Shown here: in pieces, positions 495 through 40,955 of the stretch
Layout of the letters: every line of letters starts with the position of its first letter
Numbering within the stretch: position 1 is the stretch's first letter
Origin: an uncultured Christensenella sp.
Lineage (GTDB): Bacteria; Bacillota; Clostridia; Christensenellales; Borkfalkiaceae
Direction of reading: 5' to 3'
Assembly (NCBI GenBank): GCA_949878495.1
Contig: CATLAR010000002.1
Location: 1-63,289, forward strand
Length of the DNA: 63,289 nucleotides
Position numbers and translations under genes: made by a program
Notes under the pieces: generated by a model
Database searches by the model: none
Seen by the model: the letters and a program-made list of their open reading frames with translations, nothing else
What the model was told of the DNA's origin: nothing

Positions 495-594
495 ATACGA
501 TTTGTCGCCCGAAAGATTCAATTTCGTTGAAAACGACCTTAAATTGATCAAAAAACTTGCCGAAAAGCGGTAAAAAGTATCGGGTAAAAAAATT

Positions 595-627
595 AAAGCG
601 GCTCGCGTCCAGCGAGTCGCTTTTTTC
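595..627. terminator. Intrinsic terminator between rplA and the HTH gene
   Basis: aaagcggctcgcgtccagcgagtcgctttttt. Confidence 0.7.
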
Positions 628-851
628 TATTCAAAAATATCTTCGTAATTTGCTTGAAGAATTTGTTTAATTAAAATTATTTCGTCGGGATAAAGGTGTC
701 GCTGTCCGACCTCGATTTTTGCGACGGCGCTCCGCGTTAAATCGCAGCCGCTCAGCTGCAACTTTACAGCCAAGCCTTCCTGCGTTAGTCCCGCTTTTTC
801 CCTTAACGCTTTTATATTTTGACCGATACGCTTTTCAATTTCAAAATTCAT
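627..851 (-). CDS. Cro/C1-type HTH regulator
   Basis: MNFEIEKRIGQNIKALREKAGLTQEGLAVKLQLSGCDLTRSAVAKIEVGQRHLYPDE; HTH_3 pattern. Confidence 0.85.
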   Translation of the reverse strand: MNFEIEKRIGQNIKALREKAGLTQEGLAVKLQLSGCDLTRSAVAKIEVGQRHLYPDEIILIKQILQANYEDIFE

Positions 852-884
852 AGATATAAATGCACCCAATTAAGCACAAAATGC

Positions 885-913
885 TTGACACAATTATACG
901 TTCTGATTATAAT
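885..913 (+). promoter_or_regulatory. Consensus sigma-A promoter, divergent from HTH gene
   Basis: TTGACA (885-890), 17 bp, TATAAT (908-913). Confidence 0.8.
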
Positions 914-962
914 AAGTACGCACCTATATAAGCGCAAAATGAAAATTATGGAAGAATATATT

Positions 963-1166
963 ATGAGTAAAAAACCATTGAACGATGAAGTAATTGCAAA
1001 TTTAATCGAAAGCATAGAAAATTCAGAAAAAAGACAACTAATCCACGATTATATTAGCGAAGTAACGCAAACTTGTGTAAGTCTCTGTAGCAAAGGGGAA
1101 AACGTAAGGGTTTTAAACGAATACAAAATTATGATTAAAAACATAAGAAAGCATTTAAATTTTTAA
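963..1166 (+). CDS. Small protein of unknown function (paralogue of 40622-40903)
   Basis: MSKKPLNDEVIANLIESIENSEKRQLIHDYISEVTQTCVSLCSKGENVRVLNEYKIMIKNIRKHLNF; start could also be 939 or 948. Confidence 0.65.
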   Translation: MSKKPLNDEVIANLIESIENSEKRQLIHDYISEVTQTCVSLCSKGENVRVLNEYKIMIKNIRKHLNF

Positions 1167-1193
1167 AATCTTGCCGAAACGCTGTAAAAAGCG

Positions 1194-1222
1194 TTGACAA
1201 AGCCGCGAGAAAAATATATACT
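1194..1222 (+). promoter_or_regulatory. Promoter of rplJ-rplL
   Basis: TTGACA (1194-1199), 17 bp, TATACT (1217-1222). Confidence 0.8.
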
Positions 1223-1234
1223 AATCGGGTAAAA

Positions 1235-1370
1235 AGATTTGTGTGCCAAAGACGGCGGGCGCTTAAACGGCTTAATTTCCCGCTCAGGTGACGGGTTTAT
1301 TCTTACTTAGAGTTTTTCTATTCCCTGTGTCACTATGCGCACGGGGAATTTTTTTAACGTTTCCGCACGT
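1235..1370 (+). ncRNA. Ribosomal protein L10 leader
   Basis: AAAGACGGCGGGCGC ... CCCGCTCAGGTGACGGG followed by a terminator-like hairpin upstream of rplJ; matches the known L10-leader layout. Confidence 0.75.
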
Positions 1371-8831: not shown

Positions 8832-8860
8832 AAACGCCCGCGTTATCGCGGGCGCTTTTA
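8832..8860. terminator. Intrinsic terminator
   Basis: aaacgcccgcgttatcgcgggcgctttt. Confidence 0.85.
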
Positions 8861-9067
8861 CACACCCAGAATGTAATAAAGGGTTACGTTAAAGTAATCG
8901 GCAAAATTTACGATATACAATGATTTTGCACGTTTGATTTTGCCTTTTTCCCATCGCTGTAAGGTCGCGGCGGAAATTCCCAATTCTTTGGCAAGTTCCG
9001 CTTGCGTTAAATTACGGCTTAATCTTAATTCTTTCATAGTTTTGCCTATTTCTTCATACGGTTTCAT
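8858..9067 (-). CDS. Cro/C1-type HTH regulator
   Basis: MKELRLSRNLTQAELAKELGISAATLQRWEKGKIKR. Confidence 0.88.
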   Translation of the reverse strand: MKPYEEIGKTMKELRLSRNLTQAELAKELGISAATLQRWEKGKIKRAKSLYIVNFADYFNVTLYYILGV

Positions 9068-9147: not shown

Positions 9148-9360
9148 ATGGCAGAAATAGGTGTTATAAAAAAACGTATTGCTGAAGTAATCAATAATTG
9201 TGGTTATTCCCAAACAGCTTTAGCGAAAATGATTGGTGTTTCTCAACAGACAGTTTCACATTATTCTAAGGGGGATATAACTCCGTCGCTTGAAACTTTG
9301 TCTAAATTGTGTAAAATTTTAGATGTTGACGGTAATTATATTCTTGGGTTAACGGAATAA
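9148..9360 (+). CDS. Cro/C1-type HTH regulator
   Basis: IKKRIAEVINNCGYSQTALAKMIGVSQQTVSHYSKGDITPSLETLSKLCKILDV. Confidence 0.9.
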   Translation: MAEIGVIKKRIAEVINNCGYSQTALAKMIGVSQQTVSHYSKGDITPSLETLSKLCKILDVDGNYILGLTE

Positions 9361-39995: not shown

Positions 39996-40027
39996 AAACG
40001 GCGCGGGCAATAGCCCGCGCCGTTTTT
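39996..40027. terminator. Intrinsic terminator after tsf
   Basis: aaacggcgcgggcaatagcccgcgccgttttt. Confidence 0.9.
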
Positions 40028-40230
40028 CATTTCGGCAAGTCCTCGTAAGACGCGCCGTAAAGTTTAGCAAGTTTTATAAAATTTTGCAAAGTCGGCACCG
40101 TTATCCCCGTTTCGTACGCCTGATACGACTGATAGGTAATGCCGAGTTTTTCGGCAATATACCTTTGCGTGTAGCCGAATTGCTTTCTTAAATCTTTTAA
40201 GTTTTTTGGTAAATTGTATAATTCTTGCAC
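40027..40230 (-). CDS. Cro/C1-type HTH regulator
   Basis: LKDLRKQFGYTQRYIAEKLGITYQSYQAYETGITVPTLQNFIKLAKLYGAS. Confidence 0.9.
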   Translation of the reverse strand: MQELYNLPKNLKDLRKQFGYTQRYIAEKLGITYQSYQAYETGITVPTLQNFIKLAKLYGASYEDLPK

Positions 40231-40236
40231 TGTATT

Positions 40237-40518
40237 TTAACTGTTTGATTGTAAGTCTTTAATTAATAAAACGATATGCGCCGTTTCTGATTCGGTAAGA
40301 CCGGTTGCGTCGATATAATTTTTGGTTTCAAGACCAAGCATACAGTCCGTCGACACTTTAAAATATGCGGCAAGTTTAACGAGCATTTCAATAGAAGGTT
40401 GAACGTTATCGTTTTCCCAATTAGAAACGCATTGTTTGCTTACGCCTATTGCATTGGCGAGTTCGATCTGGCTGATTCCCGCAGCTTTTCGCAAATCTTT
40501 TATTTTATCGTTTAACAT
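40237..40518 (-). CDS. Cro/C1-type HTH regulator
   Basis: IKDLRKAAGISQIELANAIGVSKQCVSNWENDNVQPSIEMLVKLAAYFKVSTDCMLG. Confidence 0.92.
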   Translation of the reverse strand: MLNDKIKDLRKAAGISQIELANAIGVSKQCVSNWENDNVQPSIEMLVKLAAYFKVSTDCMLGLETKNYIDATGLTESETAHIVLLIKDLQSNS

Positions 40519-40528
40519 AAAACACCTT

Positions 40529-40601
40529 GTCAATATTCTATTGACTATTATATAATTTTTGCTTGACAAATATTAAATATAAAAGTCAACTAATAGTTGA
40601 C
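40529..40601. promoter_or_regulatory. Promoter/operator region with two GTCAA-N7-TTGAC palindromes
   Basis: GTCAATATTCTATTGAC (40529-40545) and GTCAACTAATAGTTGAC (40585-40601), flanking a TATAAT at 40551-40556. Confidence 0.7.
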
Positions 40602-40621: not shown

Positions 40622-40903
40622 ATGGATAAAGAAAAAATCGTTTACGCGTTTTGCGGACGGGAAAAAGCAAATAAAAGCAGGTCAGACGCGATATATTCGG
40701 GGTGTAACTGTGAAAATTATAGGGATGCTGAACCTGAAGTCATAAATTGCGTTGAAAAATCGGATAAGAAAAAAGTTTACTGCGCTTATATAACCGAAGT
40801 TTTGGTGCGCTGTGAAAAACTATTGTCGAAAGGCAATAACGAAAGCGCGTTAATGGAATATAGATTTATGATAGACAATTTAAAAAAAGAATTTAATATA
40901 TAG
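40622..40903 (+). CDS. Small protein of unknown function (paralogue of 963-1166)
   Basis: C-terminal VYCAYITEVLVRCEKLLSKGNNESALMEYRFMIDNLKKEFNI aligns with IHDYISEVTQTCVSLCSKGENVRVLNEYKIMIKNIRKHLNF; SD aaaggag. Confidence 0.7.
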   Translation: MDKEKIVYAFCGREKANKSRSDAIYSGCNCENYRDAEPEVINCVEKSDKKKVYCAYITEVLVRCEKLLSKGNNESALMEYRFMIDNLKKEFNI

Positions 40904-40955
40904 CATTAATGCCCCCGCCGACTTGAAGTCGGCGGGGTTTATTTTACGGAAACGG

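Follow-up and report, generated by a model that had tools for sequence, protein, structure and literature searches.

Small XRE/Cro-CI autorepressors with divergent targets are represented by CI/Cro, RstR-rstA and ImmR. In Streptomyces, many chromosomal XRE-DUF397 pairs (Scr1/Scr2) were proposed to be toxin-antitoxin systems and were later found not to behave as such (PMC6262351). Here, we describe two cassettes of an uncultured Christensenella sp., both located in a stretch of 63,289 nucleotides that was analysed as a whole and is referred to as the window. A sequence-only reading of this DNA had placed small open reading frames at 963-1166 and 40622-40903, divergent from Cro/C1 HTH genes and surrounded by translation genes. 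Both reading frames are present, and the small gene of each cassette is divergent from one or more XRE genes passing the Pfam HTH_3 cut-off; cassette 1 lies between rplA and rplJ and cassette 2 between tsf and pyrH, in agreement with that reading. The features of both cassettes are the following:

551-594, plus strand: upstream member of the direct repeat flanking cassette 1, in two collinear parts (551-577, 24/27 identical; 579-594, 15/16 identical), without the rplJ-promoter part
627-851, minus strand: XRE repressor gene of the type named HTH-A, ATG at 851 (HTH_3 31.1 bits, cut-off 23)
862-880, no strand: operator 1, GCACCCAATTAAGCACAAA, matching the operator conserved upstream of HTH-A orthologues
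885-913, plus strand: sigma-70 promoter of the 67-aa gene, TTGACA-17-TATAAT (12/12, promoter scan)
920-938, no strand: operator 2, GCACCTATATAAGCGCAAA, just 3' of the -10 and of the conserved operator type
963-1166, plus strand: 67-aa free-standing CFI-box tail protein, three-helix (homology, AlphaFold, dN/dS)
1165-1239, plus strand: downstream repeat copy, whose two parts, 1165-1191 and 1224-1239, enclose the rplJ promoter at 1194-1222 (repeat comparison, promoter scan)
1228-1363, plus strand: L10 leader of rplJL, directly 3' of cassette 1 (Rfam RF00557, 58 bits)
40027-40230, minus strand: second XRE gene of cassette 2 (HTH_3 about 60 bits, cut-off 23)
40237-40518, minus strand: first XRE gene of cassette 2, adjoining the operators, ATG at 40518 (HTH_3 about 60.5 bits, cut-off 23)
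40529-40545, no strand: cassette 2 operator GTCAATATTCTATTGAC, over the -35 of the likely small-gene promoter
40585-40601, no strand: cassette 2 operator GTCAACTAATAGTTGAC, a palindrome over the -35 of a leftward promoter
40622-40903, plus strand: 93-aa CFI-box tail protein (homology), with the Shine-Dalgarno sequence AAGGAG upstream
40913-40937, plus strand: terminator of the 93-aa gene (promoter/terminator scan)

The 67-aa and 93-aa proteins are homologous, with 41% identity over 54 aa (E 1.1e-8), which bears out their proposed relationship; the homology excludes the N-terminal ~35 residues of the 93-aa protein. When the whole genome was searched in six frames with the 67-aa protein, only the protein itself and the 93-aa protein were matched. 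All three XRE genes exceed the HTH_3 gathering score (31.1, 60.4 and 60.5 bits versus 23), two of them standing in tandem in cassette 2. Comparison with orthologues indicates that the HTH-A gene most likely starts at the ATG at 851 and not at the TTG at 869. These orthologues are 70-81% identical in seven genomes of the genus and 51% identical in another family, and no second HTH-A match was found in its own genome at E<=1e-12. Since the XREs of the two cassettes belong to different subfamilies and their operators differ, only the small proteins are paralogous, and the suggestion that one cassette is a duplicated copy of the other holds for them alone. An XRE resembling the 40027-40230 gene was found upstream of pyrH in genome G067 (L098), beside a different small gene. 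The window also contains, at 8858-9067 (minus strand) and 9148-9360 (plus strand), two mutually divergent XRE genes separated by an 80-bp gap, a CI/Cro-like pair that adjoins a coding sequence resembling elongation factor G.

The cassette 1 operator has exactly two sites with no mismatch in the 1.21-Mb genome, and these flank the 12/12 promoter. No further site with fewer than three mismatches was found genome-wide, and matches with three were at the control level. Since the operator is confined to cassette 1 in its own genome, the HTH-A XRE probably acts locally. HTH-A orthologues in eight other genomes keep operators of the type TTTGCACYTATWTARGTGCAAA (nine genomes in all). The likely promoter of the 93-aa gene consists of TTGTCA at 40527 and TATAAT ending at 40556 (promoter scan). 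Over 16 divergent intergenic regions palindromes were enriched with a Fisher p of 1.6e-6, a value combined over 16 pairs among which several single operators are individually non-significant, and a TTGAC/T element is present in 15 of these regions. Usually, one palindrome lies upstream of the -35, and another covers the spacer or directly follows the -10. The operator sequence varies by XRE type, being TTACCAA-n5-TTGGTAA-like in G077, G317, G323 and G347, ACACTAAATTTAGTGT in G014, ATACGAA...TTCGTAT in G319, GCGGAAAATCCGC (present twice) in G420 and GTCAACTAATAGTTGAC in cassette 2 of the window. Paired palindromic operators in the shared intergenic region that are kept among orthologues are the sequence-level mark of an autoregulated divergent module, and such operators were found; the XRE of each window cassette probably binds its predicted pair.

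Cassette 1, with its small gene at 963, abuts the rplJ promoter (1194-1222), which scores 11/12. A terminator scan between the 67-aa gene, starting from its own promoter, and the rplJ promoter and L10 leader (963-1400) found no terminator, so that upon derepression transcripts could extend into rplJL. In G066, G050 and G067, too, the cassette ends just 5' of the rplJ promoter.

The family of the small proteins had not been recognised, and searches of Pfam, PHROGs, NCBIfam and PADLOC with them gave chance-level matches only. Their identity emerged from full-length homologues of ~150-195 aa in the same genus and in other families of the order, the end of which is the window-type stretch. These long forms have a Cys4 zinc-ribbon-like N-terminus (the pattern C-x2-C...C...C is present in the 15 long forms compared), followed by the CFI box, GCFLTSACV-YxGKxDDCxELTxLRxFRDxYM, and then by the tail. 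Three of three long relatives tested exceeded the 40-bit cut-off of NCBIfam NF041770 (CFI-box-CTERM), with 49.6-56.8 bits. The window proteins, which have neither zinc ribbon nor CFI motif and are homologous to the C-terminal region of these proteins, do not match this model at that cut-off; by homology, each is the free-standing tail of the CFI-box domain alone. In plasmid CFI-box-CTERM proteins of E. coli, Lysinibacillus and Pannonibacter, the alignment starts at the CFI box and continues to the end of the tail, which makes the tail a part of that domain beyond the end of the 69-position model. AlphaFold predicted a three-helix bundle for the 67-aa protein (mean pLDDT 89) and an all-helical fold for CFI box plus tail (pLDDT 84-95). 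Foldseek gave no match at E<=0.001 with either model, and in the PDB the tail profile matched designed PPR proteins over 20 residues of a repeated helical hairpin, matches that were judged convergent.

The tail was present in 23 of 396 genomes of the order and in 17 of 142 genera. At class level, the CFI-plus-tail block ends proteins with GTPase, PIN-kinase-zinc-finger or zinc-ribbon N-termini (named by eye), and it also occurs in phage-contig proteins; the viral contigs and phages searched contained distant CFI-box proteins only. In two viral contigs, CFI-box domains terminate long proteins or lie close to their ends (L148, 3159-4705, where they are found in two neighbouring genes, and L260, 1643-3937), and in L039 (1084-3447) the domain ends a PIN-kinase-zinc-like protein. 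The CFI-box gene of the Lysinibacillus plasmid adjoins VWA and PP2C phosphatase genes and that of the E. coli plasmid a dynamin gene (plasmid records L263, NZ_CP106864.1, and L264, NZ_CP148279.1). The VWA/PP2C, dynamin and PIN-kinase contexts are reminiscent of stress or conflict systems. A literature search found no study naming the CFI-box domain. We also asked whether the remaining half of the long form might be encoded separately, by zinc-ribbon proteins standing alone next to XRE genes; one match was clear (G420, E 2e-7), the others were weak, and the idea was dropped.

Linkage to HTH genes in other genomes had been set beforehand by the sequence-only reading as a point on which its module could fail. 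The tail was matched at 31 loci in the order, 15 of which have an immediately divergent XRE gene; these 15 come from genera belonging to several families (G066, G077, G014, G135, G420, G319, G317, G323, G347, G308 and five short forms), many of the compared genomes being draft assemblies. With a chance of an XRE neighbour of at most about 2.7% per locus, estimated from the own genome only (36 HTH_3 domains in 1.21 Mb), the binomial p was 3e-16 for 15/30 and 1.6e-7 for 7/17. Among the remaining loci, an HTH-like neighbour was recognised by eye in G408, two loci have a single intervening gene and one is convergent. All five short forms are linked to an XRE gene; roughly every second long form lacks an XRE next to it, so the CFI cargo does not depend on one. 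Outside the order, a GTPase-CFI gene (L136) is also accompanied by a divergent HTH gene. The recurring regulatory module of a small XRE and a small protein proposed by that reading is therefore seen in many genomes, and the sequences argue strongly for its autoregulation.

The cargo behind a given XRE is not constant. HTH-A is found with the short CFI protein in its own genome, a long CFI protein in G066, lipoproteins in G040 and G072, related proteins of 180 and 165 aa in G029 and G056, a 114-aa protein between tsf and pyrH in G008, and others besides. Conversely, CFI-tail genes occur behind several XRE/operator types, and one short-form clade stands beside at least three: HTH-A in the own genome (G000), another XRE in G050 and G067, and a third in G069. 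This exchange in both directions is the main evidence by which a promoter unit with exchangeable cargo is favoured over a toxin-antitoxin pair or a specific anti-repressor. The 165-180-aa cargo of G029 and G056 (L045, L046), one of which was tested and gave a weak SRA-domain match below the cut-off (E 2e-4), may possibly be readers of modified DNA. Other small genes were observed beside XRE genes. A previously undescribed family of 62-69 aa with an ...SFPNGQK-like end (L163, L164 and L174 in the own genome, L098 in G067) is repeatedly divergent from them, including upstream of pyrH in G067; a 51-aa protein, likely with a single membrane span and very similar in both copies, is divergent from an HTH-domain regulator at both L170 and L177 of the own genome; and DUF6809-like proteins (one tested, Pfam E 3e-8) are divergent from XRE in the tsf/pyrH gap of G022 (L108) and the rplA/rplJ gap of G123 (L198).

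We consider it probable that the cassettes are local self-regulated units expressing exchangeable effectors, here the CFI-box tail. From the sequences we infer repression, induction and a role of the tail as effector or adaptor. Each locus would combine a small XRE repressor with a divergent cargo gene whose promoter is framed by two operators; the XRE would occupy both and thereby repress its own gene and the cargo, until a signal relieved repression and the cargo was made at a high level. Its relatives are the zinc-ribbon/CFI-box/tail proteins encoded at the same position in related genomes, and the predicted three-helix tail would bind another protein rather than be the dedicated partner of one XRE.

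If the tail instead bound and inactivated its XRE, a bistable switch with positive feedback would result, as with phage antirepressors or SinI/SinR. The divergent genes with two operators, the free-standing small helical bundle and the constant XRE linkage of the short forms are in keeping with this, but contact with one specific XRE is made less probable by a clade that accompanies at least three types of XRE, and HTH-A retains its operators even where the cargo is an entirely different gene, so that an anti-repressor appears unlikely. The sequence-only reading had also offered a toxin-antitoxin-like pair, in which a toxic tail would be kept silent by the XRE. The consensus promoter under presumed local XRE control, with an operator that is only local, and weak scores of the XRE to antitoxin families speak for it; against it, the small proteins show no toxin fold or PADLOC match. 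Type II systems are defined by one operon and fixed partners, but the window genes are divergent and not co-operonic, and XREs and cargo swap partners. The pair does not hold in this strict sense, and we regard a toxin-antitoxin function as quite unlikely.

Repeated insertion of a mobile element had likewise been suggested. Among the linked gaps of the genus, 5 of 52 between rplA and rplJ and 5 of 35 between tsf and pyrH hold XRE cassettes, with varied cargo; this exceeds the ~2.7% background, but the gaps were chosen from the window's own cassettes and an insertion hot spot remains a lead. No integrase or transposase was seen at the occupied sites examined, and no flanking repeats or target-site duplications above chance were detected at seven of eight of them, the exception being cassette 1 with its partial duplication. 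Dedicated mobility of the cassettes is not supported. That duplication, and the absence of the zinc ribbon and of the domain-defining CFI motif from both window proteins, would suit truncated CFI-box genes that have lost their function in decaying islands. However, the 12/12 promoter and the operators are intact, the three-helix model is confident, and four short forms (window 963, G050, G067 and G069) constitute one clade (support 99/95) with frames open throughout and residues conserved. Pairwise dN among them is 0.37-0.60 and dS is saturated in most pairs; since residues were retained despite saturated synonymous sites, the short forms look like genuine genes, and degenerate remnants are very unlikely. 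The 93-aa protein may be a separate truncation, as it joins this clade weakly (67/73). No long form was seen in the genomes of the four short forms (draft assemblies); this speaks against the short form being a decoy for a long-form paralogue.

Self-regulated cassettes with exchangeable cargo thus remain our preferred reading. A wider possibility, tentative and rather doubtful, is that gut Clostridia of this order run combinatorial "plug-in" cassettes, in which XRE-operator promoter units and small effectors would recombine and become established in gaps of translation operons that are used repeatedly; the CFI-box tail would be a minimal adaptor for stress or conflict response, shared with kinase, dynamin-linked and GTPase proteins. 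In any case, two orphan small proteins are now assigned to a domain family that is widespread yet unstudied, and the CFI-box domain is reduced to a ~60-residue tail that is predicted to fold by itself and can be tested alone. As XRE-operator units keep their DNA sites while the cargo changes, the operator offers a handle for finding effector genes in gut bacteria of a large and mostly uncultured group.

Compared with CI/Cro, RstR-rstA and ImmR, the window units share the small HTH_3 regulator, the divergent promoter and the paired palindromic operators, but they are stand-alone units of two or three genes with no phage or ICE genes nearby, and window-type cargo varies between genomes. Like XRE-DUF397 (PMC6262351), they join an XRE to an uncharacterised small protein, pairs of which are numerous on the Streptomyces chromosome; DUF397 genes, however, lie downstream of the XRE, whereas the window genes are divergent and the small families are unrelated. 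Two-operator autoregulation and a weak match of HTH-A to PADLOC Control_protein (E 4e-7) recall the C (controller) proteins of restriction-modification systems, but no linked restriction endonuclease or methylase gene was found at the window cassettes, whose neighbours are ribosomal-protein and translation genes. As for CFI-box-CTERM (NF041770), the window proteins differ in comprising only the tail beyond the CFI motif, whereas their long relatives in the same genetic position belong to that family and carry, after the CFI box, the region that aligns with the window proteins.
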